Of a stretch of DNA of 64,000 bases, positions 36,749 through 64,000 are shown one piece after another. The DNA is from Berberis thunbergii (Eukaryota > Streptophyta > Magnoliopsida > Ranunculales > Berberidaceae). The position numbers and the translations under genes were made by a program. Within the stretch, counting starts at the first letter, position 1, and each line of letters opens with the position of its first letter. The notes below the pieces were generated by a model. That model had not been told where the DNA came from, searched no databases, and saw only the letters and a program-made list of their open reading frames with translations. Where the stretch lies: assembly GCA_003290165.1 (NCBI GenBank), contig QNQO01007614.1, positions 1 to 64,000 on the forward strand. The letters are read 5' to 3'.

Positions 36749-36849
36749 GTTTGGCGCCGCCCGTGGGAAACGACAAGTTTCCTTTCTAAAAAGAAGATCT
36801 ACATTGACAAAGTTCACCAAAAATCTGATAAACTATCAACAAGCTGTCA

Positions 36850-37525
36850 GAACAAATGACACACCCTACATATCCTTAACCCGACAACGATAACAATAAC
36901 TCTCCTACTGGCGACAATGTATCACAAGCAACTTGTGAACAAGTCGTAGCCCAAATCGTCTAGCTAATGGCACCTGACAATCAAGATCCACAACAAGCAA
37001 TAGCCCAGACAACCCAGACATCTAGTGACGCTGCCACTGATCCTCGGATAGACCTGTTTATGGTCCAGATGAACTACATGACAAAAATTTTGGAAAAACT
37101 CACCCAGGAGCACATTTAGCTAGCTGATCCAGTCCAGGCATTGCCCCAACAAAATTTCTTCAACCGAACTCAAGGGAGTGACAAAGTTCCAGCAGAACCA
37201 ACAGGGAAACCTCGAGAAAATTAAATTCCTTTAGGGCAAGACTCCACAGTGTGACGGAACGCTTGCTGAAATCCCATTCAAAATCGAAATCACTGATCCC
37301 AACGTATTATAAGAATTAGCCAACCTGCCATTCTCTGACGCATTCATGATGACTCTCATGTCGAAAAAGTTCATTCCACCAAAGTTCTAAGTATATGATG
37401 GTACCACCGACCCAACAGATTATCCGAGACACTTCCACCACATGATGGCATTAAAGGAGACGACATAGTCGATCTTGTGCAAAATATTTTCGACTAGCCT
37501 TACCTCCACAGTAATGAGTTGGTTC
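36850..37525 (+). pseudogene. Tat B gag fragment, copy 1
   Basis: Contains a YDGTTDPTDYPRHFHHMM segment (about 37393-37446), the conserved start of the plant retrotransposon gag domain. It is preceded by a Gln/Thr/Asp-rich leader. In-frame stops occur throughout. Cut off at the Athila junction. Confidence 0.7.
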
Positions 37526-38062
37526 TTAGATTCAAATTTTATCAATATTCAAAGCATGTGCTAACATATATTGAGCTTGAACTTTGATTAAGTGTGCCCT
37601 AAAAAGACACCTAATGTTTGTTAAGAGTTTATTTGTTTGAGATAAATTTTTCATGCTTGACAGAAACTTGATATGATTGGAATTGGATTTTAATGATCAC
37701 ATCTTCAGTGTAAGCAAGGGATCCTAATCCCTAAAGCTTCTCGTTTATAATTTCAGCAATTTAGATTTAAATATATTTGCTAACTCATCGGTGAGTCCAA
37801 CCCCCACAAAATCCATCTCATCCATCTTTTCCTTTTATTTTATTTTTCTTATTTTCAATTTATTTTTAGTTTAGTTTTAAAAACATTGTAACCCCATTTT
37901 TCTGTAAATTAGTTTAGATAAATTCTAAAATTTAATTGCATCCACTTTCCTCGTGGGATCGACCCGTATTTGTCGTTGTCTATCAGTTAGACATCGTGCA
38001 CTTGCGATTATTACAAGTGGGTCAAATTAGCTTGTTTATTTAGGCCGGTTAATCTCGCAACA
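37526..38062 (+). repeat. Athila LTR fragment, left, 5'-truncated
   Basis: Matches the reverse complement of 46147-46690 almost continuously, for example TTTCCTCGTGGGATCGACCC and CATCCATC-rich stretches. It lacks about 1 kb of the LTR's 5' part. Ends CAACA. Confidence 0.85.
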
Positions 38063-38064
38063 AG

Positions 38065-38085
38065 TTTTTGGGGCCGTTGCCAGGG
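38065..38085 (+). other. Athila primer-binding site, left
   Basis: TTTTTGGGGCCGTTGCCAGGG, a slightly mutated version of the Athila consensus TTTTTGGCGCCGTTGCCGGG, just inside the LTR end. Confidence 0.75.
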
Positions 38086-39456
38086 AAGGTAGCAATGTAA
38101 TTGAATTTAAGATTTATTTTTTACTAATTAAAAAAATTTTTAGAAAAAAAACAAAATTTTATTTTTATTTTTATTTTGTTAAGTTCTTTTTACACTCATT
38201 TCGTGTTATTTGTTTGATTTTGCAGAATACACGCTTCTCGAGGAAATTGGACAATCCTGCAAACATCAAGCAAATTTTTATTTTAATTTAAAATTTTTTT
38301 ATTTTGTGAGGAGAGTTTTAATTTTATTTTTACCTCATTTTACAAGTGTGTGGTGTAATAATTTTTATAAACTCTATTGTTTTCAATTTTTAATTGCCTA
38401 AAAAAAACCCAAAATTTTCCAAGTCAAAAGAAATTATAGGGAAACAATTTTAATTGTTACCCAATAATCTTTTATGATTTAGAAATTTGACTTCTAAGAC
38501 CAAGACCAGTAATTTGATTGCATATGCTTGTGTGCTGATTGAAACGGATAAAAAGTAGGAAATTTTTTTTAATTGTGCTAACTTTTTATGCAGAACGGAA
38601 TACACATATTGTAAGTACTTTTATGACACGCAATGTATTAGCGACTCGGGTGCTTTGTGTAATTGTTTGAAATTGTGTGATTGGTTGTTTAATTTCTGTA
38701 ATTGTGGATGCTAAATTTTAGTAATTCATAATAAGCAGACCCAACTTCTAAATAGAAACTGGTGGGACTTGATATCCCCACCTCATCACTCCAACTGCAT
38801 GCAATCAATAGCCAAACATAATTAAAATCAGTTAGCAAGTTAGATAGAGCCATATTTAGGCACGGTGTTCATAGGACAACCAAGACCAAGGTGAATCCAA
38901 TAATTTTTGTGTTGGCCAAAGCTAAAAGTGATGATGGGTTTAATCATTCAATGAACTCTGAGAGGCCACTGCCACAAGGGTAATTTACCCGGTACGCCTA
39001 GTCATAAGTAAGCTACGATCCACAAGAAGAATTGGTGTAACTAACAGTTTTGGGTTAGGAACACAAGCCTCAAGTGTACATTTAACATCACATCGTTCTC
39101 ACATCTATTGGCTTACAGAGTGGTAGCACAAGGAAATACTTAATTGGACCATTGTGACCTTCTTCTCTTGTGCGATAATCTGGTTTCTTTGAAACAAAAC
39201 TCCAGCCTACTGATTTTAAACTTTGTGGTGTAAAAGTATACATCCATAGGATCATCTTGTATCACCCATTGCTCTGATATAAAGATTACATAAGAAATAA
39301 TTTGTTTCCCAAAGATAAAAAGATAATTAATCTAAAAAACATTGATTGCTTAGGGATGCATTTTTTCTTGTCCATCAATTGGTTGTTGATTGTGTTTGAG
39401 GCTGTGCGTGATTTTTTTAAGGTTAGTGAACATTTCAAACCTCACTTGGTGTAGAT

Positions 39457-41858
39457 TTGTTTATGCGTATTTGGGAACGAGATTCGAGAGGTAGACTAAT
39501 TCGAGAGGATCCTGTAGAGTTGTCTCAAGTCGCCATTGACCTTCTAGAATCTTTTTCCTTGTCGAGTGAGACCACTGAAATGGTTGGGGAGAGAGCATTT
39601 AAGGATTATTTCTCTCCACGTTCCAATAACACCCCATCTTGCATTGTCTTACTCGAGACCACTACAAGTAGCTTTGAGCTAAAACCATCAATTATCTACC
39701 TTTTGCCTTCCTTTTATGGTCTAGAAAAAAAGGAACCCTATCTTCATGTCAAAGAGTTTCTTGACATTTGTGCTACTCTGAAATATCCCAATTTTTCTAA
39801 CGATTCAGTTCGTCTTAGGCTGTTCCCCTTTTCTTTAAAAGATAAGGCTTAAACTCCTTAGAAACTAGAACCATCGACACTTGGGATGCCCTATCAGGAA
39901 AATTTTTGACAAAATATTTTCCTATTCATAAAACAAATTCCATCTGAAGAGATATATCTAATTTTCAACAGAAACAAGGTGAGCATTTCTATGAATGTTG
40001 GGAAAGATTCAATGAACTCATTGCTAGGTGTTCCCATCACGGCTTTGAAAAGTGGCGCTTGGTTCAATACTTTCAAGACGTGTTAACCCCTCAAAACCAT
40101 CGATTGATTGATGCCACTAGTGGTGGGTCACTTATGAAGATGAGTGCTAATGAGATTTGGGAATTCTTTGAAGCTATTTCTAAAAATTCTCAACAATGGG
40201 ATTAATCAAGAAAATACTCGGATAGGCAAAAAGGTGATTTGTATGAAGTAAGGGATACATCATCTACTCCTCATATTCCTCATTCTTCAAGGTTGAAAGC
40301 AGTTGTAAAGACAATGGCACAAAAGATTGATGCATATCTGGAAAAGTCTCAGCCATCAGTCCAAACCAATGTTCCAGCCGAGGTTTGTGCTGCATGTTCA
40401 AGTTCTAGTCATTCCACATCAGACTGTCACTTGAAAAATGAGTACCCTGCTTATTTTGCTGAGCAAGTCAATGCATTCAATACCTTTAGGCAATCTGGTT
40501 ATAATCCACACTCAAATTTTTACAATCCAGGTTTAGCCAAACACCCTAATCTCTCTTGGGCCCATGGTCAACATCAAGGAGGCCCAGTTGTTATCCCTCA
40601 AGCTCCTTGAGCTCCAATTCCTGCTAATAGGCCTCAATTCAATCAAGATGTATCTCCGTCTAACACTCAGAGTTTACAGGATACATTGAACCAATTTATG
40701 CATAGAACAACAACCATGCTCGAACATAACTCTCAAGCTATCACCGAACTAAGAGCTACTTCTCAACAACAATCTCAAGCCATCCAAAAACTTGAGATGA
40801 CTATGAGTCAAATAGCAAAATCCTTTCCTGAAAGAGAAGTAGGAAGATTCTCTGGTCAACCCATTCAAAATCCTAAGGGCCAATTCGAAATAGGCAGTAC
40901 ATCTCAGCCACACAATGAAGATGTCAAATCTATCCTAACCCTTAGGAGTGGAAAACAAGTTGACAACCAAATTAGAATGCCTAATTTGATTGATCCTGAA
41001 TCCCAATCCATGCCAAAGCAAGTCACACCTCCATCTGATAAGGAGGCTGATAAAGCCTCATCTTCTCAAAAGGATCATCATCTTGACTCTGATCCCACCA
41101 AGGCATCCTATATGCCTAGAACACCATTTCCATCGCGGTTAGTTCCGGCGAAGAAAGGAACAAATGCCAACGATATAATGGAAATTTTTAAACAAGTTCA
41201 AATCAATATTCCATTACTCAAGGCCATTAAGCAAGTTCCCTCTTATGCCAAGTTTTTGAAGGATTTGTGTACACAAAAGCGAAAACTGAATGTGCACAAA
41301 AGAGCCTTCCTAATTGAGCAAGTCAGCTCCATCTTTCAACACAAAACCCCACCTAAGTACAGGGATCCTGGTTGCCTGACTATTTCATGTGTGATTGGTG
41401 ATCATATGATTGGGAAGGCATTGTTAGATTTAGGGGCAAGTGTTAATCTATTGCCATATTCAGTATATGTGCAATTGGGTCTTGGTGAGTTGAAACCAAC
41501 TCAAGTAACATTGCAATTGGTAGACAGGTCTGTCCGAGTCCCCCACGGTGTGATAGAGGATGTGATCATTAAGGTTGAAAATTTTTATTTCCATGTGGAC
41601 TTCATAGTCCTTGACACACAACCTGTTCACAATCCCTCTAGTCACATTCCAATTATTTTGGATCTTCCATTTTTGGCCACATCTAATGCTATCATTAACT
41701 GCCGAAATGGAATAATGAAATTATCATTTGGTAACATGACCTTCGAACTCAACGTATTCAATGTAAGTCAACAACCTCCCGAGTCTGAGGATTCCTTTGA
41801 GGTTAACATGATTGAGAGTTTGGTGAAACATTCATTTCCTCAGTTTAATGATCCTTAA
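39457..41858 (+). pseudogene. Athila gag and aspartic protease, broken
   Basis: Gag opens near 39457. Conserved pieces are LLPSFYGLEKKEPYLHVKEF, VRLRLFPFSLKDKA and, after a stop and frameshift, FYECWERFNELIARCSHHGF. A knuckle-like CAACSSSSHSTSDC lies in 40239-40610. From 40686 an open frame of 390 codons runs through coiled-coil-like Gln-rich sequence to the protease, with KALLDLGASVNLLPYSVY holding the DLGA active site (about 41420-41470), and ends at 41858. Internal stops at 39850, 40205 and 40608 make it non-functional. Confidence 0.85.
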
Positions 41859-46123: not shown

Positions 46124-46144
46124 ACCCGGCAACGGCGCCAAAAA
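46124..46144 (-). other. Athila primer-binding site, right, inverted
   Basis: The minus strand reads TTTTTGGCGCCGTTGCCGGG, better preserved than the left site and pointing the other way. It directly adjoins the inverted LTR. Confidence 0.85.
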
Positions 46145-46146
46145 CA

Positions 46147-47690
46147 TGTTGGAGATTTTATTAACCTAAATTAATAAGCTAATAAACCTACTTGTAATAA
46201 CCGCAAGTGCACGGTGTCTAACTAGTAGACAACGACAAGTACGGGTCGATCCCACGAGGAAAGTGGATGCAATTAAATTTTAGAATTTATCTAAACTAAT
46301 TTACAGAAAAATGGGGTTACAGTGTTTTTAAAACTAAACTAAAAAAAATAAAAAAAATTAAAATAAATAAAAGGAAAAGATGGATGAGATGGATTTTGTG
46401 GGGTTTGGACTCACCGATGAGTTAGCAAATATATTTAAATCTAAATTTCTGAAATTATAAATGAGAAGCTTTAGGAACGAGGATCCTTTGCTTACACCAA
46501 AGATGTGATCATTAAAATCCAATTCCAATCATATAAAGTTTCTATCAAACATGAACAATTTATCTCAAGCAAATAAACTCTTAACAAACATTAAGTGTCT
46601 TTTTAGGGCACACTTAATCAAAGTTCAAGTTCAATATTTGTTAGCACATGCTTTGAATGTTGATAAAATGTGAATATAACTACCAAACATATCAAGTTTT
46701 AATCGAACATGAAAGATGAAAGCAATTTATCAAATTTCTGAAATAAAATTGTAATTAACAATTAAGCATTTAAGTCAGTAAAATAAATTATACAACCCTT
46801 TTGGTTTGTTGCCGCCTTGGTGCAGTGGTACTCAGCAGATCAGCAGGTTGCAAACAACACCAGGTCCAATGGGGTGGTACATCAGATTTCCAGGATGTCA
46901 ATAACGTTAGGCCATGCCCAGCCGGGGTGCTCTTATGATTCACTGGGTGCCAGTAGAGCTTCTCTTTCTTATGTGGTCGTACACGGTTAAAAGGTGGGGT
47001 GTAGATAGCACCCCAACCTTTCTTCTTCGATTTGAACAGAGAGAGGCAGGAAACTCCAGCAAAGCAGGAGCACTGGATGTTGGAGAGAGGTTCGACCAGC
47101 TGCTGCGCGTGCTGTCTGGCGTGTGTGTTGGCGCATGAACTCTCCGGAGGTGGTGATGGTGCTTATGGCGTTGACAGGGAAGGTGGCGGAGGGACAGATG
47201 GTCTGGACAAAGAGGGAGTGAGAGATGGATGGTGATGAGATGGGTGTGATGAAAATCACTTTGTGAAGGAATGAGGATTTGTTTTTGGCTATTGAGGCTT
47301 GATTCCCTTATCCTCCTCCCCTTTCACATTCATTTTCTATTGTATTTATAGATAATGAACAAAATGAATAGAAATGAGATAAATGGATGATTCATGGAGT
47401 GAATCAAGGTAAAATCAAATCTGAATATGGGATAAATGGGAGAATATTCTCTGGGATTGAGTTTATGGGCTTGGTTTTGAGTTTAGGTTATGGGCTTAGG
47501 CTATTTTCACCTCCACTTCCTCTGAAGTCACCGTCTGTGATTTATTCATTGCATTTTTATTTGATTTCTTCGTTATTGCTCTGAATTCTACAAAAGCATA
47601 AAAATTAATAATTAATTTAAAATAAAATAAAACAAGGATTAACAAAATATAATAGGAGGTAAAAATGTTATAATTATGTGATTATTTACA
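46147..47690 (-). repeat. Athila LTR, right, inverted
   Basis: About 1.54 kb. On the minus strand it starts TGTAAATAATCAC (47690) and ends CCAACA (46147). Its inner 540 bp match 37526-38062 in reverse complement. The adjoining TGAAG (47691-47695) is also present at the uninterrupted site in Tat copy 2 (near 55168), so 47690 is a genuine element end. Confidence 0.8.
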
Positions 47691-48314: not shown

Positions 48315-49990
48315 ACTTCTGGTCTGATCAACCACAGTAAGAGTTGGACGAACGATTCAACTTGATACAGAGATGTTGAACTAAAGAAGTAAAAGTTGGA
48401 CGAACAAGTTAACATAATACAAAAAACTTTGAGTCGACTGTTGCGTCAAACCAATGAAGTAAAAGTTGGACAAATGAGTCAACTTAAAAGCAACTTCGGG
48501 CTGATTAATACGTCATAGAAACGAAGTAAAAGTTCGACGAACGAGTCAACTTAACACAGAAACTTTGAGTCGACTGATACATCAAACCTACGAAGTAAAA
48601 GTTGGACAACGAGTCAATTTAATACAGAAAACTTTGAGTCGACTGAGGCGTTGAACCAGCGAAGTAAAAATTGGACGAACGAGTCAACTTAATAGAGAAA
48701 CCTTCGAGTCGACTGAGACATCGAATGTGATATCCTTGTGTGGGCGGACCTGAGGGGGAGGGTGCGGGAGAGGCCCATGATGGCAAAGCCCAATAGATCC
48801 GTGGATCCCAAAAGGGGTTGAGTGAGCTACCAAGGGAAGTTTATAGTTCCACATCACCTAGGTGAGGGAAGGGGATGTGCAATATATGTATGAGTTTGGA
48901 TCTACAAAGCACTACGCGTTTTAAAGTCATGCGAGCCTTGGACCCAAATCGGACAATATTGTACTCTATGGATCAGGTCGTGACAAAATGGTATCAGAAC
49001 TGGACCTAGCCGAAAGTGTGCCAATGAGGATGTTGGGATCCCTTGGGCGGGGGGTGAACTGTGATACCCTTGTGTGGGCGGACCTGAGGGGGAGGGTGCG
49101 GGAGAGGCCCATGATGGTGAAGCCCAATAGGCCCGTGGATCCCAAAAGGGGTTGAGTGAGCTACCAAGGGGAGATTATAGTCCCACACTGCCTAGGTGAG
49201 GGAAGGGGATGTGCTATATATGTATGAGTTTGGATTTACAAAGTACTACGCGTTTTAAAGCCGTGCGGGCCTTGGGCCCAAAACAGACAATATAGTATTA
49301 TGTGGATCGGGTCGTGACAGAATGGTATCATAGCCGGAAGTGTGCCAATGAAGATATTGGGCTCCCTTAGGGGGGTGGATTGTGATACCCTTGTGTGGGC
49401 GGACATGAGTAGGAGGGTGTGGGAGATGCTCATGATGGCGAAACCCAATAGGCCCATGGATCCCAAGAGGGGTTGGGTGAGCCACCAAGGAGAAATTATA
49501 GTCCTACATCGCCTAGGAGAGGGAAAGGGATGTGCTATATATGTACGAGTGTCGATCTACAAAGTACTACGCGTTTTAAAGCCGTGCGGACCTTGGGCCC
49601 AAAATGAACAATATAGTATTTTGTGGATCAGGTCGTGACATTTAACAAACGAAGTAAAAGTTGGACGAACGAGTCAACTTAATACAGAAAACTTCGAGTC
49701 AACTGGGACGTCGAACCAACGAGGTAAAGGTTGGACAAGCGAGTCAACTTAACACTGAAAATTTTGAGTCGAATGAGACGTCGAACCAACGAAGTCAAAG
49801 TTGGACGAACAAAGTTAACTTAAAAGCAATTTCGGCCTGACTAGCACCACAATGAAACGAAGTTGGATGAATGAGTCAACTTAACACAAAATTTCAAGTC
49901 GACCAATACGTCGAACCAACGAAGTCAAATAGAAGGAAGGAATTGACTTGATTCAAGGAGCTACAGATTGACCAATATGTTAAACCAACA
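48315..49990. repeat. Tat B tandem repeats, copy 1 (about 70-bp unit)
   Basis: The unit runs GAAGTAAAAGTTGGACGAAC, GAGTCAACTTAATACAGAAA, ACTTTGAGTCGACTGAGACG, TCGAACCAAC. Several diverged units lie left of the TRIM (48726-49640) and more lie right of it. Same array as 55815-57135. Confidence 0.85.
48726..49640 (+). mobile_element. TRIM element with three LTRs
   Basis: Three LTRs of 260 bp each (48726-48985, 49060-49319, 49381-49640) run from TGTGATAYCC to GTCGTGACA. Between them lie two tiny interiors (74 and 61 bp). Each interior starts with a tRNA-Met primer site (ATGGTATCAGAAC and ATGGTATCATAGC) and ends with a purine-rich tract (GGGCGGGGGGTGAAC and GGGGGGTGGAT). The element sits inside a 70-bp repeat unit. 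Its flanks TCGAA and TTTAA could be a diverged 5-bp target duplication. No coding capacity, as typical for TRIMs. Confidence 0.88.
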
Positions 49991-50223
49991 AAGTAAAAGT
50001 CTTGTTAAAAAATCAACTTCCTCGTGCAAGCTCCAACGCATCAAGAATTATAAAGTCAACAAATCTCAAGACAATTAATTCGTCAAAGCGTGAAAGAGGA
50101 ATTCGATGTAAAGCTTGATATGACTACAACTGGACTAAAAAGGAGCAAGCAACATACAATGAGCCGGCAAGATAAACTACGAAAACATGCAATACATAAA
50201 AATAAGCTTTTTTATTAACAATA

Positions 50224-52476
50224 CTATTTTGTTACATCCGAAGAAGAAGATGGAGTAGGAGAAGAAATGGAAGCAACCACAAGATCGTCAACAACATCAT
50301 CTACGGGAGAGCGCAAAATTCTCTTTTCAGAAGAGGGAGGAAGCAAGGGCTTTTCAATCACTGGGGCGCTTGAAGGGGGTATGGCAATTTCTTCACCGTC
50401 ATCATCTTTGAAAACTCGATCAACCAAGTGGTGGTACTTGGATAAATCCACACTTAGCCCCTCGATATAATCATGACGCTCAACCCGCCCATCAACAACT
50501 CGCTTCCAATCTTTAGCTTCGACAATGCGTAACTTGTCCTTGGCAGTAGCGAGTTCATTTTTGGCAGCGGCAAGTCGCCCCTTGGCGGTGGTAAGCATAA
50601 CGAAACTATCTGCCTAAATCTCATCAAGCGCAACCATAAACTTTTCCACCCGACTCTTAGCAATATCGCGACTAACAGATTGTTCAATCTCAACATAAGA
50701 AGCCTCATCATAAGCTGCCTTCTCGACGGATAACTTCTTCTCCACATCACGTAAACGGGCACGAACCCCATCCAACATGGCTTTCAAGGACTCAAGCTCA
50801 GTAGTAGATTTATCCCGTAAACTTTCCGCCTCAACCAACAAATTCTGAGCAGCCCTGGCAATTTTTTTCGACTCTATGCATTGCACTATCAACACATCGA
50901 ATTGAAAAAGACGTGAGAAAACACTAGCAACAGTGCTGCCAAATTTCTCTCTAAAGAAACCACCTGATCACTACAGACTGGATAGACCGAGCCCGTCACC
51001 CCTGCATAAGCAAAATGATTCATCCCGTCCATTATCTGCTCAAACCATAATCAAGGTGATCAATTGGATCCAATACGGGCATCCAAGGTTTTTCCACTAA
51101 TCACTTATGCCATTCATTAATCAACCTGCAAACTCTCCGTCTGACTTGATACATATATCTTCTGGGCTAGGCTCAGTCCAGCCAACTTGTGGATTAAGAA
51201 CATGAGGATCCGAAAGCATTGAGGAGCCACCCTCAACAGCCAAAAGGGCAGAAGGAACAAGAGTGACAACATAAAAACATCTTTTGTCCTCTCGGCTAGG
51301 AGCAACCATATAAGGACGAGACTAGTAGTGGCAGCGATAGCAGGAGAGTCCAGACGGGCAGTAAAAGAAACTAAGAATCCGACCGCATCATTGACGTTAA
51401 TAGAAAGAGAAGGAGGAAAGTAAACCTCACAACTCTGACCACCACCGACAACCTCTTTAGACTGCTCCACCGCCAACTGAAGCATTTTATCATCAATAGC
51501 CCAGGGATGATCATTAGACCACTCAGCAACTTCGAAACACCATAGGCTGAAAAATCCTCTTTTCATTAACGTCCAATGGACGAGTAGTCTCTTTATCGCT
51601 TCTCTCCAATACCAGCCTCATCTCCTCAGCTTCCTCGAGAGATGTGCGATCCTTTTTACGACATCTTCGAAAGAAGGACTTGGATGAGAGGTAGCTTTCG
51701 TAACATCCTTACCAGGACTCGGACGGGATGCAGTTCGAGCAAAACCACGAGTAGAAAACCGTTTCTTTCTCGAAACCAAACCAGAATATACCAACAATCG
51801 CCTCGATGGACTATTGGGCCTCGCAAGCTTCCTATTTCTCAAAGTCGGGACTACAACATGAACATGAGCATCGAGATCTATAACGCATCTATTTGTACTT
51901 ACTTTCCAATCAATGCTAGCACCACTAATGCCAACACGAGTAACACGAGCAACGATATCCTTAGCACGAGATTCAGTAAGCAAGAGCCGCTGTGCTTCGT
52001 TCATGTTGTACAAACCACTACGATCCTAGATGTCCTTAGGAAGAAATGCCTCCACAGGAATTTGGAGAAGCTTCAAGAATTGGTCATTGATCCTCTGCTT
52101 TTCCGCAGTTTTTCCATTTGATGGGAACTCAGAATGATCAAAAAATCAAACGACCTCGCAATTGGAAGTAGCCAGAGTTAACAGAAGCATAAAACCATGA
52201 CCTTGACTAATCACAGATGTCATCGTTAAGCTTCGGGAAGCAGACAGAAGAATAAAGGAAGCATATATCCTTGGTCACCGTCAGACCAACCACCGAATGC
52301 AGAACCCTCACAATAAAAGGAATGTCGGAAAAAATAGCCCTTGCGTAAGAAAAAACCATTACTCTCCAACCATTAGGACTCATTTGAGCAGGAGGAATGC
52401 CCAATAAGTCCAGATACTCCCAAAACAACTCTTTAATTGGGAACCAAATGCCAGAAGAAAATATGCACGGATACAA
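50224..52476 (-). pseudogene. Antisense ORF of Tat B (Transposase_28-like), copy 1
   Basis: Minus-strand pieces in order: 52476-52207 with FPIKELFWEYLDLLGIPPAQ and MSPNGWRVMVFSYA, the Transposase_28 core; 52013-51618, a basic Arg/Ser/Pro-rich part; 51566-51117; 50895-50614, a helical charged part rich in Glu, Arg and Lys (coiled-coil-like); and 50598-50224, ending SSPTPSSSSDVTK. The pieces are separated by stops and frameshifts. It corresponds to the antisense extra ORF of Tat elements. The same domain appears in Tat element A. Confidence 0.7.
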
Positions 52477-52827: not shown

Positions 52828-53418
52828 TGATGATATATAAAATAAACTACCATTGAAGCCATAGTGGTAGAAGCATCCATCACGAGGATCTGACATCCCA
52901 TCTATTGGGCTCGCTCGTAAGACCCAAGAAGATTGAAGCCAACCATAGAGGCCCAAACAAGGCCCACTATAAGAAGACATAATCAAAGCCCAAATCTAGG
53001 CCTGAACTAATCAAAGCCAAAATCCAGGCCCGAACGAATCAAAACCGAAATCCAGGCCTGATGTGAGTTATCTCATAAAGAAGACGATTATTACACAAAA
53101 AAAGAGTCGTGAAGGGAGTTATGCCTCCACGGACGCATCTCCATAAATGAAGAGACTGTTACGAATAACATCTCCTTCCGTTGCGCCTCACATGCTTAAG
53201 TCACGCAGAGAATTAACCGCAACCAGTATAAAAGGTAAAGGGACATTCGACAAAGGTATGCAACTTTAACTGAGTTTTGTCCAGATTTACTTCCTTCTTT
53301 AAACAGAGTCGCTGACTTAAGCATCGGAGTGCCTTCCACCACCAAAAAGGTGGTATTTGGCAGTCTAACGTCTGTTTTGCAAGTCAAACTCTCAGGTTGA
53401 CGAGATTTGGACGCCTAA
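52828..53418 (+). repeat. Tat B LTR 2, shared by copies 1 and 2
   Basis: Starts TGATGATATATA after the purine tract AAGGGAAAG and ends near GACGCCTA. It acts as 3' LTR of copy 1 and 5' LTR of copy 2. The primer-site region that follows is mutated (ATGGCCCCGTCAGTGCGG). Confidence 0.85.
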
Positions 53419-53979
53419 GTATGGCCCCGTCAGTGCGGAGCGACAAGTCTCCTTTCTAAAAAGAAGATCCACAGTGACGAAGTTCACTAAAATCTGATAA
53501 ACGATCAACAAGCTGTCAAAACAAATAACACACCCTACATATCCTCAACCTGACGACGATAACAATAAGTCTCCTATTGGTGACAATGTATCACAATCAG
53601 CTTGTGAACAAGACGCAACCCAAATCATCGAGCTAATGACACTTGACAATCAAGATCCACAACATGCAATAGCCCAGACGACCCATACATCTGTTGACGC
53701 TGCCACGGATCCTCGGGTAGACTTGTTTTTGGTCTAAATGAACTACATGATGAAGATGCTAGAAAACTCAACTAGGAGCGCATTCAGCCAGCTTATCCTG
53801 TCTAGGCACCACCTCAACAAAACTCCATCAACCGAACTCAAGGGAGTGACAAAGTTCCAGCAGAACCCCAACAGGGAAACCTCGATAGCAATGAACTCCT
53901 TCAAAGCAAGACTCCACAGTGTGACAGAACACTTGCTGAAATCCCGTTAGGTAATTGTTCGAATTAGCCAAGCCGCCAT

Positions 53980-55016
53980 TCTTCGACGCCCTCGTGATAA
54001 CTCCTATGCCGAAAAAGTTCACTCCGTCGAAGTTTGAAGTATATGATGATACCACCGACCCAATAGATCACATGAGACATTTCCCCCACACGATGGCATT
54101 GAAGGAGACGACATAATCGATCTTGTGCAAAACATTTTCGACTAGCCTTACCTCCAAAGAAATGAATTTGTTCAACAGCCTACCACCAGAGGTCAATAAA
54201 CTCTTTCCAGGCATTAGCCACCTCTTTTATCATCAGATTTATCGGAAGCCAGCAAATGAAGAAAAGACCACCCTACCTCCTCCATATCAAGCACAAGCCT
54301 GAAGAGACAATACGGGAATACATCACTCATTTCACCAACGAACTAACGATGATCGATGGATGCAGCGATGACACAGCCGCTACAACTTTCATCGTCAGAC
54401 TGAAGAGAGGTCCCTTTTTTATGCTATCAACCTGGAAACTCCCAAAGGCATGGCGATCCTATTGAAAACAACCCAAAAACAAATTTCTATTTAGGAGATG
54501 AAAACAACCACGAGGAAAAATGACTAAGAAAGGAGAATCATTCGAGGAAACAAGAAATGAAGGATGAGATGACGGACCACGGGAGGATAACATTCAATCG
54601 AAGAGACATCAAAATAATAGAAGAGCCGATTCAAACCAACAAGAGTTCGAGAAGCTGTAGCAGCACGACTCCGGCACGAGTGAGTAACAAGCGTGATGAA
54701 GAAGACATACAAACCATATACAACTTTGAAAACAAGTCGAGCCAATATACTGAAGCTCATAACAAAATGGGATGACATCAACTGGCCACTCAAGATGAGA
54801 GGAGACCCGAAAGGAAGAGATAAAAACAAATATTGTTCCTTCAATAAGGACCATGGGCACGATACCGAAGACTGCCACTATCTAAAAGACGAAATCGAGC
54901 ATTGGGTTCAGAAAGGACGATTTGATGAGTTCATCAGAATGACAGGACAAACACCTCAAATGGAAGGAAATAACAGATTACCACTACGGGATCAAAAGAA
55001 CAGTCTAGAGAACTAA
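53980..55016 (+). pseudogene. Tat B gag, copy 2
   Basis: Begins around FEVYDDTTDPIDHMRHF. It continues in shifted frames with YLLHIKHKPEETIREYITHF (54256-54465) and the knuckle YCSFNKDHGHDTEDCHYL followed by EIEHWVQKGRFDEFI (54693-55016). These are typical of Tat gag. Frameshifts and stops make it inactive. Confidence 0.8.
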
Positions 55017-55814
55017 TATATGCCCTACACTACATGGCCAGAGGGAAACAAAACAATCAACCCAACAAAAGAAGCAGCCAGAAGTACCTTACATTCGAGC
55101 TGATCTATATCGAAACATGAGTATTACGAAACCAGGCGAGCCATCTTACCAGTGCATAGAACACAGTGAAGTTTGTGCCGATCAATTAACACGATTCAAG
55201 GGCCCTTCGGATGGATGCAAGCTCGACCCAAATTACCAACGACGAAATTGACGACGACGTACTTGACAAAACTCGGCGGTTGATACCGAACAAGGAGCTA
55301 ACATAAGCATGATTGGATAATTTGTGTTGATGTGAGCATGATGGGACAGTTTGGTGCTGACGTGAACATGATTGGACAGTCCAGCGCTGATGTGAGCATG
55401 ATCGGACAAATCGACACTGCTCAGCTACTGAATAAAAAAAACACCCAGTCTGTTAGCTACGATAACATATATGAAAAACGAGGCAAAACATAACCCATAG
55501 CAACTACAGTGAATAAAAAATTATACTAGACAAAGCAACAAAAAACAGAGGATCAACATCAACCAAGCAAAGGAAGACAAAACAAATCGCTTTTCAATCC
55601 AGCATAAATGTTTCAGAAATCAACAGTTAGGACTGGTTAGAACATCCGAAAGGGAATATCAATAAAATTAAAAATTCGAAATCCCCATCTTATGCGTGGA
55701 CGAAAAGATAAACGCATCAAAAATTGGCCACACAGAGCAATCGACATACCAAGCCATAATAAATTAGGACAAAAATCAAATATATATAATAAAAACTCTG
55801 GTATGATCAATCAC

Positions 55815-57135
55815 GAAGTAAAAATTGGACGAACGAGTCAACTTAATATAAAAAAAAACTTTGAGTCGACTGAGACGTCGAACCAAAGAAATAAAAGTTG
55901 GATGAACGAGTCAACGTAATAAAGAAAACTTTGAGTCGATTGGTGCGTCAAACCAACGAAGTAAAAGTTGAACAAATTGCGTCAACCTAAAAGCAATTTT
56001 GGGGCTCACTGGTATGTCAAAGAAACGAAGTAAAATTTGGACGAACGAGTCCACTTAACACAGAAACTTCAAGTCAATTGAGACATCGAACCAACGAAGT
56101 AAAAGTTGGAATGAACGAGTCAACTTAATACAAAAAACTCTGAGTCAACTGAGACGTCAAACCAATAAAGTAAAAGTTAGACAAATGAGTCAATTTTATA
56201 CATAAAACTTTGAGTCGACTGAGACGTCGAACTAACGAAGTAAAAGTTGGACGAACGAGTCAACGAAATACATAAAACTTTGATTCGACTGATGCGTCGA
56301 ACCAACGAAGAAGAAGTTTGACAATTAGTCAACGTAAAAGCAACTTCGGGAGGACTAGCACGTCAAAAGAAACGAAGTAAGAGTTGGAAGAACGAGTCAA
56401 CTTAAAACAAAAAATTTCGAGTCAACTGAGATGTCAAACCAAGAAGTAAAGTTTGATGAACGAGTCAACTTAATACAAAAAACATCGAGTCGACTGAGAC
56501 ATTGAATCAACAAAGTAAAGTTGGACGAACGAGTCACTTTATACAAAAAACTTCGAGTCGACTGAGACGTTGAACCAATGAAGTAAAAGTTGGATGAACA
56601 AGTCAATGTAATACATAAAATTTTGAGTCGACTATTGCATCGAAACTAACGAAGTCAAAGTTGGACACAAGAGTCAACTTAAAAGCAACTTTGGGCTGAC
56701 TATTACGACAAAGAAACGAAGTAAAAGTTGGAAGAACGAGTCAACTTAACATAAAAAACTTCGAATCGATTGAGATGTCGAACTAACAAAGTTTAAAGTT
56801 GGACGCACGAGTCAACTTAATAGAGAAAACTTTGAGTCGACTGAGACATTGAACTAACAAAGTAAAAGTTGGATGAACGAGTCAACTTAATATAGAAACT
56901 TTGAGTAGACTAAGACTCGAACCAACGAAGTAAAAAATTGGACGAACGAGTCAACTTAATATAGAAAACTTTGAGTCAACTGAGACGTTGAACCAACAAG
57001 GTAAAAGTTTGACAAGTGAGTCAACTTAACATAGAAAATTTTGAGTCGATCGATAATCAAACTGACGAAGTCAAATTGAAGGAACGAATTGACTTGATTC
57101 AAGGAGCTACAGATTGATCAATATGTTAAACCAAC
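55815..57135. repeat. Tat B tandem repeats, copy 2 (about 70-bp unit)
   Basis: Roughly 18 diverged units of the GAAGTAAAAGTTGGACGAAC family, with AACTTTGAGTCGACTGAGAC in most units. Unit lengths vary by a few bases. Longer than the copy-1 array even without its TRIM. Confidence 0.85.
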
Positions 57136-57448
57136 AAAGTAAAAGTCGAGTTAAAAAATCAACTTCCTCGTGCAAGCTCAAACGCATCAAGAATTTTAAA
57201 GTCAACTCATCTCAAGATAATTAATGCATCAAAGGTGAAAAAGGAATTCGACGTAAAGCTTGATACGACTTCAACTGGACTATAAAAGGAGCAAGCAACA
57301 TACAATGAGCCGGCAAGATAAACTACAAAACATGCAAAACCTAAAAATAAGCTTTTTTCTATAACAATACTATTCTGTTACATCCGGAGAAGAAGATGAA
57401 GGAATAGGAAAAGAAATGGGAGCAACCACAGGATCGTCAGCAACATCA

Positions 57449-57451
57449 TCT
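57449..57451. repeat. CACTA 3-bp target duplication (left)
   Basis: TCT before the terminus. The empty site in Tat copy 1 near 50297 reads CATCATCTACGGGAG, which places the insertion right after this TCT. Confidence 0.75.
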
Positions 57452-57469
57452 CACTACACCAAAAACCCC

Positions 57470-57765
57470 CATTAGCAACGGTTCTTATACCGTGGGCGTA
57501 AGCCATTGCCACGGCTAAGAGCCGTGGACTACAGGGGCGTCGCGAAATCCTTTGTAACGGCTATAAACCGTTGCTAAAATTTTAGCAACGGTTTATATTC
57601 AGGACGGTTGATGCTTTAGCTACGGTTCTAAACCGTTGCTAAAAGTTTAGCAACGGTTTTAAGCCTTGGCAAGTATTAGCAACGGCTTAAACCGTGGCCA
57701 GGCTTGCCACGGCTTAAAACCGTTGCTAAACTTTTAGCCACGGTTTTAAGCCGTGGCTAGTAAAC
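57470..57765. repeat. CACTA subterminal repeats
   Basis: More than a dozen copies of TAGCAACGGTTT and variants (TTGCCACGGCTTA, AACCGTTGCTAAA) in both orientations in about 300 bp. Such arrays are binding sites for the transposase of En/Spm-type elements. GC content here is far above the neighbouring DNA. Confidence 0.9.
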
Positions 57766-58083
57766 AAATTTTTTTTTTTGCTATAATCCCTACAAAAACA
57801 TTTTGATTCAAAACAAACAGAACCTTCTTATACATTAGCATTACATGTTTGTGTCCCAAAACATGAATGAAATGATAGAAAACCAGTGTTAGTTCAATTC
57901 ATGTTAATTTTTCAAAGCAAAAAATTAATCATTGCTCGATGTTTGTGTTGATTTGGAACTAAACATCCACTCAATCCACACATCAAAGCTCACAAAAGTG
58001 AGTACAAAGTAGATCACTACTGCTCCCAACCCAAAGTAGGGAAAGTCAAACTATTATTGAACTATAATGAATTAAGTACTACT

Positions 58084-58281
58084 TCAAGAGTTACCATCTT
58101 TGAAACAGTCATTGCTGTCAAACAGAACCTTGGCTTTGGTGGCATCAGGTACCAATGAGCTTGCATGCGAAACAGTCATTGCTGTCAAACAAAGAGCGTA
58201 AAAAACTTGCAATGGTCCAAAATGTAGATCCATGATGACCAAGGAAAAGAGCCATTTATTAAAAAGATTAAAACAGGTCAT
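58084..58281 (-). pseudogene. Probable ABCB (P-glycoprotein) transporter exon fragment
   Basis: The minus strand encodes HFGPLQVFYALCLTAMTVSH and ASSLVPDATKAK, followed by AAG|GTTCTG as a possible donor. This resembles the last membrane segment of an ABCB half-transporter just before its nucleotide-binding domain (pattern F-x-AL then SSL-x-PD-x-x-KAK). A 23-bp word (GAAACAGTCATTGCTGTCAA plus ACA) occurs at both 58102 and 58169, flanking the conserved part. Only this exon is present. Orientation matches the other captured fragments. Confidence 0.55.
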
Positions 58282-58299
58282 ATGTAGATGAAGTTTTCA

Positions 58300-58740
58300 A
58301 CATAAATATTTAGAGAATATGTGCTCAAGACAGCCTAACAAGCAGCCATTAATCCAAGCATCTTTCAGACACTGCTAATATGTGCTCAAGACAGCCAAAC
58401 AAGCCTAGGAAAGAAGACCCATACAAACGAAAAAGTCCACCCTGCTCGACGCGCAAGCCTCGCTCCTGCAGCGCCAACGCCACCGTGCAAACAACGACAT
58501 GCACTAGCAGCTTCCTGCTCGACGCGTCTCCTTGCTCCTGCAGTGCCAAGGGCACCATGCAAAACAGGGGAGAACCCATGCTGAAAGCTCCTATCAGCTT
58601 CTATGTGCTCAGTACACATGCAGTCCAGCCAGCCTCGCAAATGGAAACTGACAGAAACCAGGCTGAGTGCACCTCGTTCCTGCGCGCATTGTGATCCTCG
58701 CAGCTGAATCGCCTACACCACCCCTGCAGGCCAAACAGAG
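58300..58740. other. GC-rich unassigned segment inside the CACTA element
   Basis: Base composition differs sharply from the flanks. CTCGACGCG and GCTCCTGCAG words are repeated. Overlapping open frames exist on both strands without a known domain. ATGTGCTCAAGACAGCC is duplicated at 58319 and 58380. It may derive from another captured gene. Confidence 0.35.
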
Positions 58741-58786
58741 CCGCAAAGCAGATAATCACCCCCTCAGTGGAATTCAAATAACATAC

Positions 58787-58945
58787 CTGAGTGGAATTCA
58801 AATTGTTGGCTTGCACTCCCTGTCTTCACATCCCACACTATCGCAGTTTTATCCACACTGCCACTAAGAAGATAATCACCCTTTTTGTTCCACTTAAGAG
58901 AGAAGATCAGTCCTTTATGTTTGTTTAAAGTATTCCTGAGTTCAC
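58787..58945 (-). pseudogene. HOS15: Captured HOS15 (WD40) exon
   Basis: One exon of 159 nt, acceptor CAACTAG|GT and donor TCAG|GTATGT, open throughout. It encodes [20 protein letters not shown], then [14 protein letters not shown] and QQFEFHS, a WD40 repeat matching HOS15/TBL1-type proteins. In plants HOS15 acts with histone deacetylases in cold and stress gene control. No neighbouring HOS15 exon is present, so this is a fragment. The reading frame is intact, suggesting recent capture or weak decay. Confidence 0.85.
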
Positions 58946-60322
58946 CTAGTTGAGAGAAAATTAATCACCCAAAATCAGTGCTGCGATATTCAAAGTGAAA
59001 ACTAGTCGTGAATTTCACACAACCCATGAATGAGCAAAAGCATCCCAATATATATAATTAATCAAAATACCATTTTGTAATATATATACAGTGATATAAG
59101 TGATGAATTTGTTTTGAATCAGAATTATATAATCATATAAAAGGATACATACACTATTATTTCTTAATTGAATAAGTCTTCTCTACAAGGTGTTGATGAC
59201 AATTTTATTTTCAAACATATTCATACATAACATTTATAATAAGAGTATCATTCCCAAGGAAGGGACAACCTTAACTCAATTGCTTTTTAATAAATGAGAT
59301 CAAAGTAATAGATCCACCTATCACCAAGCTGCTTGTAAACATCAGGTATGCTAACGAGGTATTCTTACGTACCCGATCCTTCCTCACTTATCCAACAATC
59401 CTTTATAAACAACGTTCGTCAACTTTCTCACTGTGCTAGAAGTTTCTCCATATGCATCACTGAAATCTGCAATCCTCGATCTATCAGTAACTACATCACA
59501 AGGTTTTACAAGGAAACCTTAGAATCAGCAAAACTGTGGACAAAGGGCACATCTTTGAAAGCGAGAATCAAAAAAAAAATGGCATCGCAAAATGTTTTGT
59601 TAACCTAGGCATGATTCAGCTGAAATTGATTCTTTTACAAAGATAAATCAATTGACATATAAAAAATCCTTCAGGTAGGCATTGGTCACAACAAGGGACA
59701 AGGGTTACAAACCCTAACAAGCACAACCTTATCCATTTATACAGTTGTATCAATTCTTTGTCATATACTATCCCATTTCAACATTACCAGAAACGTATGA
59801 AAAACAAAAAAAGTTGTAACTAAACAAGTCCTACCAACTTTAATTCTACCTAAACTAGAAGAAAGTTGTGTAACAATATTTTACACTTAGAAAAGTAATC
59901 GGCAAGTTATTGAAAATCCTGATCAGATCAACAAGGATCATAAGTTATAACAACGAACATTATGTGAACTGATTGAGGAAAGTATACTGAACCTTTAACG
60001 GAATCACAATCCTAGATGACTTCATTGCAAAATTATTGATACGACTCAAGTGCAAGGTTCAAAGAAAGTTTCATTGCAAAATATGCCTCATCTGATTATT
60101 TTGAGGCCAAGAAACTAACTTGACATTAATTCAATATTATATGCCGACATACGTCAATGTAAACTTTCCAAACAAATTCTTGTGTGCAACATCATTTGCT
60201 GAGTTAAAAAAGAAGCATATACAACGAAAACAAAAAAAAACAAAAAAGGGGTAATGAAATATTCAACTCCAAACTTTCATACTTCAGGAAAAAAAAACAA
60301 AAAGACATAAAAAAAAACCCAC
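58946..60322. other. CACTA interior without recognised exon
   Basis: AT-rich, intron-like. A plus-strand frame at 59348-59608 has no domain. Probably intron and spacer sequence between captured fragments. Confidence 0.4.
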
Positions 60323-60401
60323 CTGAGTACCATATCCTTGTTTGCAATTAACTCTTTGCATAAGAGCTCAGAGGCAGCAGGAACAACTTCCATATCTAAA
60401 A
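60323..60401 (-). pseudogene. Unidentified captured exon
   Basis: A 79-nt segment on the minus strand with acceptor ATTTCAG and donor CTCAG|GTGGG. It encodes LDMEVVPAASELLCKELIAN then KDMVLR without stops. The parent gene is not recognised. The exon-like borders and the same strand as the other fragments suggest capture. Confidence 0.45.
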
Positions 60402-60821
60402 CTGAAATATGAACAACAAATTATGTAAAATAGAATTCTACAATAGAAAAAAATGCAAAATTTAAAATTAACTAAATAAAAAAAAAATAAAAAAAGGAAA
60501 CAATTACATACCTTTGACTTTGAAGGCTGCTAAAATTAAGAATGAAGGAAAACACTACAACACAAGGTTTCATATGGAAAACCTTCCAATCAAACAGCCG
60601 TGAACAAGGAAAACACAACTTAAGCTTATCTTTTCTTTTCTTTTCGTTGTTTTTAAAATAACACCTTAAATTTATCAAGTCAATGGTATAATACTAACAA
60701 AAACAGTTGAAACTCAAATGATAACACATTAGAGTGATCAAGTGTATGGTTGTGTAAAAATCATTTTTATTGCCAAAACTCAAGTAATGACAGAAATAAC
60801 AATGATAATAATAATAATAAC

Positions 60822-60968
60822 CATCATGGTTTGAATTGTCTTCCCTAATCCCATCTCATCAGCCAAAATGCCATTTAGGTTGTTGTTGAACAAGAGCATC
60901 CATTGAAGTCCTTCCAGCTGGTAAGGTCTTAGCTCTCCACCTTGAAGCATAGACGGTTGCTCAGTAAC
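60822..60968 (-). pseudogene. Captured SNF2-family ATPase exon (CHR12/CHR23-like)
   Basis: A 147-nt open exon, acceptor CTACAG|GTT and donor ATG|GTTATT. It encodes [36 protein letters not shown] and the Walker A motif [11 protein letters not shown]. This is the start of the helicase domain of SWI/SNF-type chromatin remodelers, closest by memory to CHR12/CHR23 of Arabidopsis. The remaining helicase motifs are absent, so it has no ATPase activity by itself. Confidence 0.88.
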
Positions 60969-61123
60969 CTGTAGAGTACTATATACTCACATAATTTTTG
61001 AATAGATTACAATACAGAAGTTTTTTCCTAGAAAGATACTGGTTCAACATTATAATTAGAAAGAAATTAGCAGAAGTGAATAAACTCCAGAATTAACATA
61101 AAGATCAATTGATATCAATATAC

Positions 61124-61226
61124 CTTAGATGAAATACATGTTGGCTCAGCAGAATTAACATAACTAGACTGCTTCAGTAAATCCAGTGAGCTGTCTACAT
61201 CCATCTCTTCACCAAATCGGAGCCCC
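61124..61226 (-). pseudogene. Captured pfkB sugar-kinase exon, downstream piece
   Basis: 103 nt, open, encoding FGEEMDVDSSLDLLKQSS to AEPTCISSK, with acceptor CTCTAG and donor TCTAAG|GTATAT. By position and acidic composition it fits the exon after the GCIMLER segment of plant pfkB-type kinases. Its phase does not match the preceding fragment (61358-61484), so correct joining would fail. Confidence 0.5.
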
Positions 61227-61357
61227 CTAGAGGTAACACTTTACAGCTTATTAGAAATTGTAGATGACAAAAGTAAACCAAAATAAAAATTGAAGACAAC
61301 CACTTAACACTTTCTTTCGTAGACCCATTGTTGAAGATAAAATGCTGGCAAACTAAC

Positions 61358-61484
61358 CACTTGTACTTCTCTCAAGCATTATGCAGCCATCCTTTCCAAG
61401 GGTGACAATAACAAATTTGATATTGGGCAGTTTTAGAGCCATGGACACAAGTGCACTTGGAATTGATGGGGCTCCTGTCCAATC
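61358..61484 (-). pseudogene. Captured pfkB sugar-kinase exon
   Basis: 127 nt, acceptor GGGCAG|GATTGG and donor AGTG|GTTAGT. It encodes DWTGAPSIPSALVSMALKLP, then NIKFVIVTLGKDGCIMLERS. This is a middle segment of the ribokinase-like (pfkB) fold of an uncharacterised plant kinase family. The catalytic DTTGAGD motif is not present in the window. Confidence 0.8.
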
Positions 61485-61601
61485 CTGCCCATTAGAGACG
61501 AGTATTTGTTAGACACAGAATTTGCAATGCAAATTAATAAATGCTACAACATTTATATGTAAAAACCAATGGTGAAAGATAAGGTAAGCAGTCTAATATA
61601 C

Positions 61602-61704
61602 CTGTGTCAACTCTCCAGCATCAGGCAAGTGCATGTTCAGATGGTTACAACAGTCTTTCGTATGCCGAGTTTGAAAAACTGGAAATTGTGACTCTTGGGC
61701 CAAT
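61602..61704 (-). pseudogene. Unidentified captured exon next to the pfkB piece
   Basis: 103 nt, acceptor TTTGGCAG and donor ACACAG|GTATAT. One open frame encodes LAQESQFPVFQTRHTKDCC and ends LPDAGELTQ. It precedes the pfkB exon on the minus strand in a compatible phase but does not resemble the kinase. The origin is unknown. Confidence 0.4.
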
Positions 61705-62012
61705 CTGCCAAACATTCAAAGCAAAACATATAAAGTGATCAATAATGAGCAACCAAGAGCAACAAAAAGATGAAAACAAATTTTAATTGAAACCATGCAT
61801 GAGACGTCATCAAGATTTACCCTTCATCTCAGAGTGTTTTGAGAAAACCACAAAACGGTGCCATAAAATACCAACAAAGCAACTACTGAAATGTGAGATA
61901 TAGTAATTAAAATAATGTTGGTACTCCGAGTATGTAACCTGCATTACATACACTGTAACTACATCACTTTTATGCGAGGGAGGAGGGGAATAGATGAACA
62001 AGAATGACTCAC

Positions 62013-62068
62013 CCACAAGACCATATTTCTGTAGGAATGCAGTAGTTGTTGCAGCATCCCAATCGTAC
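62013..62068 (-). pseudogene. XYLA: Captured xylose isomerase exon c
   Basis: 56 nt encoding YDWDAATTTAFLQKYGLV. Acceptor ATTTCAG|G, donor TGTGG|GTGAGT. It follows exon b in the correct phase. Confidence 0.88.
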
Positions 62069-62153
62069 CTGAAATAGCATTATTAATGATGTTATAATCA
62101 GTAGAACATCAGCAGACTGTGTAATGAATTGAGTCTAATGGCATAATGCATAC

Positions 62154-62199
62154 TGGTGCTTAGTAGGTTCTTGAGGCTTGGGTTCAATCAGCAATGTCC
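62154..62199 (-). pseudogene. XYLA: Captured xylose isomerase exon b
   Basis: 46 nt encoding TLLIEPKPQEPTKH, one of the most conserved segments of xylose isomerase, with a Glu that binds the metal in the family. Acceptor ATTTCAG|GG, donor CACCA|GTATGC. Confidence 0.9.
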
Positions 62200-62349
62200 C
62201 TGAAATAACGTTTAAGATTGTCAGATAGTCAAGGGAAATGTTAAATAGAAGTTTTGTATCAATGTTCCATCCCATGAATGGAGATATACCTTAAGAGTCC
62301 ATGTGTGGGTGTATGTGCTAAGAAAGTCACAACTCAAACAAAAGATTAC

Positions 62350-62400
62350 CATTGAATCCAATCTTTTCTTATAGGCCACAGCAGCTTGAAGAAAACTTGC
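62350..62400 (-). pseudogene. XYLA: Captured xylose isomerase exon a, frameshifted
   Basis: Encodes ASFLQAAVAYKK. It then lacks one A of a Lys codon run compared with the expected KKKIGF order, so the frame into exon b is lost. Acceptor TTTTGAAG, donor TCAATG|GTAATC. With exons b and c it forms a three-exon genomic fragment with introns, which shows capture at DNA level. Confidence 0.75.
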
Positions 62401-63523
62401 CTTCAAAAGAAAAAAATAAAAATTTTAAACATTTTAGTTAATAAGCATTTAGAAGGTCAATTTGGCATATGTCTCACATAGTAAGAATATACAAGGGAGG
62501 ACTAACACAGATAAGTAGGACATACACAGTATTTCTAGTACAAAACTAAAAGGATGAGATCAAAAAGCTGTGAAATATGCTAACAACAACCTAGGAAATA
62601 ATTTGAAAAATGTTTTTGATATGATTTCCAACCACTAAATTTGATTATAACACAAAGCAATACCCGTCCAACCATTTTTCTAAAACCATCTGTAGCTGCT
62701 AAAAAGCAGTAACAGCTACTTGTTGTTCATCATTTTCTGGGCTTGAAAATGCAGTTTCAACATATAGCCAAGCTTTACAGCTAACCACTCAAATGTGTTT
62801 TCCGAGTTTACATTAATCTTATCCAAATAAAACCAAAGACTGTAAACTGTATTCAAAATAATTTTTTTTTCTTGGGTTTTGACAATCCTAAATTGGAGAG
62901 GAAGGGTTGGAACTGCAACAATTGTGAGAGGTCAGGTAAGAATACCTCTATTCAATCCAGATGTTAAAAAGATTATCACTGCCTTGGAATCTCAATATAT
63001 TTTAAATCGATAGGATCACAATTCACAGTTAAACTACAACTTGTCAAGCTTGGAATCTCAATATATTTTCAATCTATAGGATCACAGTTAAACTACAATT
63101 TGTCAAGCTTACCATGTACCAACTTTCAAACAATTATAAATAAAATATGCATAGAAAATGCATCCGTATGCAAAATGGATTAATTTATGATGCACCCAAC
63201 AGATATAAGGTGCATAAGAATATCATACCAAATTGTCACTAGAGCAAAATGGCCTTCCCTTATCATAAATTCAGAAAACTTTAAAAAATAAACTGTAAAG
63301 GAAACCTAAAGGAACCTGAAACTCAATTTTACAAGCTTAAAGTCTAGGCTTGTTCCCTTCAAGTTTGGTTTCTGACTTGGTTAGAACAATATATAGAACT
63401 TGGCAAAAAAATATCAGATTAGCCAAGACTAACATCAAGTTGCATATAGCAACTCATTTAGTACTTTTAATATGAGAAACAAAGTGACTGTGTTTTACAT
63501 TTTTTTTATATATTGATACTTAC
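62401..63523. other. CACTA interior between captured fragments
   Basis: AT-rich, intron-like. The words TTGGAATCTCAATATATTTT and TCAAGCTT are repeated about 65 bp apart (near 62980-63110). No exon recognised. Confidence 0.4.
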
Positions 63524-63582
63524 TATATTTGTCTCTACGGAATCTGTATCTACTTTTAGCCCTTTGATTTTGTTCACTCCAT
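63524..63582 (-). pseudogene. Captured exon following the PQT3-like piece
   Basis: 59 nt encoding WSEQNQRAKSRYRFRRDKY, acceptor TTTTACAG|A, donor AAATATA|GTAAGT. The phase fits the upstream exon (63747-64000), so it is probably the next exon of the same gene. The sequence itself is not diagnostic. Confidence 0.5.
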
Positions 63583-63746
63583 CTGTAAAAGAAAAGGAAA
63601 AAAACACATTTTTCAGTTGCAAAACATAAGTGATGCTGAAATTGGAGGATATGTAAAGGAAATTTACATTCCATAGCAAAAGCGATACCTGAAAATGGAA
63701 CTTATGATAAGAACTGGCACTATGTAACTGATGAAACAGAAAATAC

Positions 63747-64000
63747 CTGCTTCCTGATGATGTTAAGGCAGAATGGGTGGGCGATGGGACTTTGATCTGG
63801 AGGAGTCGAGCAGGCTCCTTATCAGACAAGGGTCCTTGAGAACTTGACTTGGTTCTACTAGTTTCTTCACTACTAATATCTGGGTTTAAGAAGAAGTCAA
63901 TGGTCTTGCGGAGTGTCGCATTAGGTAGAAGATCATCTGTGAGTACATTTGTCGCTCCACAAATGCACATTAGATCTTTTGAGACAATGTAGTTCCTGAT
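63747..64000 (-). pseudogene. Captured PQT3/RBBP6-like E3 ubiquitin ligase fragment, continues past window
   Basis: The minus strand is open from the window edge: IRNYIVSKDLMCICGATN, then VLTDDLLPNATLRKTIDFFL and a Ser/Pro-rich tail to SALTSSGSR. The donor is GGAAGCAG|GTATTT. This is the end of the RING/U-box of plant RBBP6-type ligases such as PQT3, with the C-x-C and the conserved LPN-x-TLR-x-TI. The DWNN domain and the first half of the RING lie outside the window, if present. It is interpreted as a captured fragment because of its neighbours, but the gene could be longer to the right. Confidence 0.75.

Follow-up and report, generated by a model that had tools for sequence, protein, structure and literature searches.

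Members of the CACTA (En/Spm) superfamily have inverted ends that start with CACTA, a 3-bp target site duplication, and subterminal repeat units of 10–20 bp. A transposase supplied in trans recognises such an element by its ends and subterminal repeats. The TnpD/TnpA transposase is carried by autonomous CACTA elements only. The interiors of non-autonomous elements typically contain fragments of host genes, as stated in PMC8195511. For Tgm-Express1, found in the soybean wp allele, PMC1947982 reports that 11 of the 12 distinct cDNA types carry cassette exons of the element. Elements of the Tpn1 family average 7,081 bp in length, with the longest reaching 40,619 bp, and one is described as yielding chimeric transcripts (PMC5105172). 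Maize Pack-CACTA elements have the most distinct captured loci among Pack-TYPE elements, and new DNA is gathered when two nearby insertions move together, according to PMC8903248. On wheat chromosome 3B, 140 CACTA capture events with 145 genes are recorded in PMC4290129; most of these genes are fragments, and 26% are transcribed. Related literature includes PMC8978399 and the review PMC13317346.

The 64-kb stretch of Berberis thunbergii DNA analysed here (the window) contains one end of a CACTA element, a cut-and-paste transposon, adjoining fragments that come from five or more ordinary plant genes. The region from 57452 to 64000 is best explained as the left part of a large, probably non-autonomous CACTA (En/Spm) element that is inserted in an older repeat and carries genomic pieces of at least five parent genes (probability of roughly 0.84). 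All DNA up to position 64000 would belong to this one element.

The terminal repeat of the left end, CACTACACCAAAAA, is located at 57452–57465 on the plus strand. It is the sole match in the window at up to one mismatch, where 100 shuffles average 0.01. The subterminal array extends from 57472 to 57762, with palindromic repeat units in both direct and inverted orientation. With up to one mismatch, the motif TAGCMACGGYTT occurs 11 times in the window, and every occurrence falls within 57473–57759, with 0.60 expected. The fold of 57452–57770 has a z value of −14.3 against 100 shuffles, none of which equals it. These three results bear out the initial annotation, which had placed a CACTA terminus with dense subterminal repeats at this position. 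The superfamily features present are thus a left end starting with CACTA and subterminal repeats in direct and inverted orientation. A 19-base subterminal string has no match in viral contigs. Six-frame Pfam scans of 57763–64000 returned no transposase family. To move, a CACTA element that has kept recognisable ends around a replaced interior would depend on transposase from another source.

The left edge of the insertion is fixed exactly by an uninterrupted related copy of the insertion site, which lies outside the element at 49954–50302 on the plus strand. In a self-comparison of the window, 56781–57451 aligns with 49644–50302 at 84.5% over 679 positions. Near the insertion, 323 of 354 positions are identical between 57100–57451 and the uninterrupted copy, and the match stops at 57451 and 50302, in both cases directly after TCT. 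The TCT at 57449–57451 is the presumed left copy of the 3-bp target site duplication and is also present in the uninterrupted copy, ending at 50302. After TCT, the interrupted copy reads on into CACTACACC and the uninterrupted copy into ACGGGAGAGCG. The 300 bases past 50302 match nowhere else in the window at an E value of 1e-3, which places the expected far side of the insertion past 64000. The right junction predicted there is composed of an inverted TTTTTGGTGTAGTG-like end, mirrored subterminal repeats, and then TCT-ACGGGAGAGCG (TCT-ACGGGAGAGCGCAAAATTCTC). The retroelement content of the window, together with its HOS15 and PQT3-like pieces, marks it as plant DNA.

With up to three mismatches allowed, the window contains 19 sequences resembling the inverted end, compared with 11.9 expected, and 3 of the 100 shuffles reach 19. 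Between 57466 and 64000, none of these sequences is in right-end orientation. A window without a right end would also suit a broken left CACTA end that never mobilised the gene pieces now beside it, these having arrived otherwise. The routes named for this are deletion, break-repair filler DNA, and another insertion. Short local duplications at 58313–58881 could be repair or filler junctions, and PMC8195511 allows that termini with no partner may in some cases be the ends of truncated elements. Such a history is unlikely, however, given that the left end is intact and meets its target precisely, and that host gene pieces are the typical interior of non-autonomous CACTA elements as these are described in PMC8195511 and PMC5105172.

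The gene pieces lie to the right of the array and are read here from 64000 leftward along the minus strand. The PQT3-like piece (63747–64000) is an exon of a DWNN E3 ligase that ends in a GT donor and continues past the window. All four of its matches with an E value of 0.1 or lower are DWNN proteins (2.5e-11 to 7.8e-8), the best being from Asimina (2.5e-11), and one DWNN relative bears the name PARAQUAT TOLERANCE 3-like. It has no PDB match up to an E value of 10. Four relatives share 29 invariant columns, and the piece differs from them at 4 of these; it also has one residue more than its relatives. As its right side is cut by the window edge, it could be part of a larger unit.

Xylose isomerase is present as three pieces on the minus strand. 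The first (62350–62400) contains a 1-nucleotide frameshift that places the two halves of the exon in different frames, and it shows a one-residue gap relative to the solved enzymes. The second (62154–62199) and third (62013–62068) were assigned using PDB, TIGR02630, and splice and frame analysis. Joined across the introns and the frameshift, the three pieces match PDB with an E value of 1e-15, in an alignment spanning 50 of the 440 residues of 1a0d. Without joining, TIGR02630 is matched with an E value of 4.4e-05, far below the curated cutoff, and all eight PDB matches are xylose isomerases (0.038 to 0.59). The reading frame is carried across the GT-AG junctions of both introns, and this continuity is independent evidence for the exons.

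The first pfkB kinase piece (61358–61484, minus strand) is 82% identical over 39 amino acids to P0074, a Mucuna ribokinase, with an E value of 4.8e-14. Its Pfam PfkB match (0.0043) is below the curated cutoff, and its PDB match reaches only 0.5. The second piece (61124–61226, minus strand) has no Pfam match and is 50% identical to P0074 over 28–30 amino acids. Its tblastn E values of 0.006 and 0.037 are weak alone; in P0074, the matched segment adjoins that of the first piece, a few residues on. From this position it is probably the next pfkB exon after 61358–61484. As delimited, the two pieces are out of frame when joined across the intron between them, a mismatch that another donor or a 1-nucleotide change could explain.

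The SNF2 ATPase fragment (60828–60968, minus strand) extends from the start of the helicase domain to GLGKTIQT. By itself it matches Pfam with an E value of 1.1e-11, and the PDB value of 1.1e-18 was obtained with a query that also included the second pfkB exon. An acceptor is present. The similarity ends at GLGKTIQT next to an ATT run and without a donor, and the piece is one residue short relative to its relatives.

The HOS15 piece (58787–58945, minus strand) was identified by homology and splice sites as an internal exon of a TBL1-type WD40 protein and encodes one propeller blade. It is 89% identical over 54 residues to a Carya protein and 88% identical to an Alnus HOS15-like protein, and it aligns with 54 of the 553 residues of protein P0060. 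WD40 proteins account for 119 of the 120 best of 826 matches. The commonest residue is replaced at 5 of 53 sites, including a leucine where all 119 relatives have proline (119 of 124 proteins passed the match threshold). Mean identity to the relatives is 84%, compared with 86% among their 79 distinct segments, which is no test of constraint because the relatives were picked by similarity to the fragment.

Longer relatives of the HOS15 and PQT3-like pieces are present in other plants. The changes in the HOS15, PQT3, SNF2, and xylose isomerase pieces suggest either relaxed constraint or divergent paralogues; they give no measure of age, which would take the parents from the same genome. Under the CACTA element reading, the pieces would be decaying as gene fragments. 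They could instead be exons of intact neighbouring genes, as the PQT3-like exon, open to the right and with its GT donor, would allow. The other four parents, however, are present only as short internal parts, and five unrelated parents are intermixed within 5.2 kb. The frameshift in xylose isomerase, the lack of a donor where the SNF2 similarity ends, and the deviations of HOS15 and PQT3 at sites invariant among the compared relatives also count against intact genes. This alternative is extremely improbable, and for the parents other than PQT3 it is close to refuted.

Three further minus-strand exons are candidates, defined solely by their splice sites and an open frame. X1 is located at 63524–63582, X2 at 61602–61704, and X3 at 60323–60401; each has AG/GT sites. 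X1 and X3 have no PDB match up to an E value of 10. X2, searched alone, has no homologue, and no candidate shares three words with it. Assignment of X2 to pfkB was ruled out because the sequence upstream of the pfkB piece in the parent protein is a different one. Two exons had earlier been listed as unidentified. Of the exons proposed here, 61124–61226, which has no Pfam match, is probably pfkB, and X1, X2, and X3 have no identified relative. A probable ABCB transporter had also been named and is not upheld: no ABC family was found in six-frame Pfam scans of 57763–64000 up to an E value of 0.5, or in PDB scans of two of the three minus frames up to an E value of 1.

That a CACTA end precedes DNA-level pieces of five or more genes is well supported. 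The initial annotation had named PQT3-like ligase, xylose isomerase, pfkB, SNF2, and HOS15 as parents, and minus-strand exon pieces of all five were found. Its proposal that capture occurred at the DNA level with introns kept agrees with the two xylose isomerase introns, across which the frame is kept, and with the intron between the pfkB pieces. A GT donor follows 10 of the eleven proposed pieces, all but SNF2, and an AG acceptor precedes each of the 10 whose start falls in the window. Because exon boundaries were set at AG/GT sites, these tallies add no independent evidence. The one-orientation claim holds as a count, with five of five identified parents on the minus strand, and fails as a significant result by itself (two-sided chance probability of 0.0625).

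The plus strand of 57763–64000 has no Pfam match, a weak absence since the minus-strand scan of the same region returned SNF2, WD40, and a weak PfkB only and missed xylose isomerase and PQT3, so small pieces could escape. The Pfam scans of this region also bear on whether a Helitron or Pack-MULE gathered the gene pieces and is now nested within the CACTA element. Both kinds of element carry several gene fragments as well, as reported in PMC1947982 and PMC4290129. No Helitron or MULE protein family was found in the scans of 57763–64000, though non-autonomous copies lack these anyway. A nested element of this type is very unlikely.

Joined, the eleven proposed exons total 1181 bases, and the identified exons require all three frames. 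One frame contains PQT3 and xylose isomerase pieces 2 and 3. Another contains xylose isomerase piece 1, the second pfkB piece, SNF2, and HOS15, and the first pfkB piece is in the third. Reading on from PQT3, its frame reaches a stop within xylose isomerase piece 1. This joining therefore encodes no single chimeric protein, and a protein through all pieces is ruled out by the three frames and the frameshifted xylose isomerase. The earlier suggestion that ubiquitin, chromatin, and sugar-metabolism domains are joined is not supported at the protein level. Shorter combinations that stay in frame could arise through alternative splicing. A chimeric spliced RNA from the minus strand is possible, with a precedent described in PMC1947982. 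The surviving splice sites could make the pieces cassette exons in read-through transcripts.

The shared orientation might have been kept since end-to-end transcription tolerates pieces that are spliced out cleanly, which would make the element a mobile array of cassette exons. This proposal is unlikely to be right. If true, such an array could plug new domain combinations into whichever gene is entered. The share of single-orientation cargo across many such elements would test read-through splicing as a filter on cargo.

For capture, the best-supported route, taken from Pack-TYPE elements, would be for two nearby insertions to be mobilised together, with the process recurring over time. The capture model is said to come from a 2019 Arabidopsis paper. 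Of the features of Pack-CACTA elements, DNA-level capture with introns is present. Rightward of the left end lie pieces from five parent families. Pack-CACTA annotation as described in PMC8903248 rests on both ends and on parents from the same genome, whereas the present candidate has its left end in the window and parent families recognised from relatives elsewhere. The wheat 3B figures in PMC4290129 imply mostly one gene per event, unlike the present element. The Tpn1 family of Ipomoea nil, as described in PMC5105172, has conserved ends, and the element would share with it a non-autonomous structure and a captured genic interior, a likeness in organisation.

Tgm-Express1, Tpn1, and Pack-CACTA, as described in the sources above, already provide cases of CACTA elements that captured several gene pieces and of chimeric spliced RNAs, and by itself this element alters no accepted picture. 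It adds an exon-shuffling CACTA example with an uninterrupted copy of the target in the same window. The nearest example is Tgm-Express1, for which five captured genes and chimeric splicing have already been shown; PMC1947982 confirms, with five gene pieces, the soybean precedent that the initial annotation had cited. Like Tgm-Express1 as described in PMC1947982, the present element carries exons and introns from five unrelated genes and retains canonical splice sites. In that account, one transcription unit includes all five pieces of Tgm-Express1 as cassette exons, so they should share an orientation. Tgm-Express1 is a complete 5.7-kb element within the intron of a gene and is documented by cDNAs (PMC1947982), whereas the present element has one end, a repeat as its insertion site, and other parents, and is known from DNA alone.

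The stretch at 58313-58881, adjoining the HOS15 piece, contains several short direct duplications, each 13-34 bases in length. The 1-kb bin that holds them has a higher GC content than the adjacent bins. These duplications are possibly filler at a capture junction.

A 70-bp tandem repeat forms three separate arrays (48379-48716, 49644-49823, and 55813-57049), the first two of which are separated by a 321-bp tandem array at 48726-49640. Comparison of the window with itself identified two repeats whose copies lie far apart: a direct repeat with 81% identity (52828-54173 and 36194-37525) and an inverted repeat with 91% identity (46125-46686 and 37519-38084). The direct and inverted repeats abut at approximately position 37520, while their other copies are not adjacent.

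A LINE-like element is present on the plus strand at 12347-15068. It contains endonuclease-like and reverse transcriptase domains, which are scattered across three frames.

The C/D-box snoRNA snoR71 (RF00097) has a match on the minus strand at 39937-40045, with a score of 46.3 bits (cutoff 40). This match is flanked by open frames at 39430-39852 and 40206-40610 and is upstream of frames resembling protease and reverse transcriptase. It may be a pseudo-copy. A retroelement with a snoRNA inside would be unusual.
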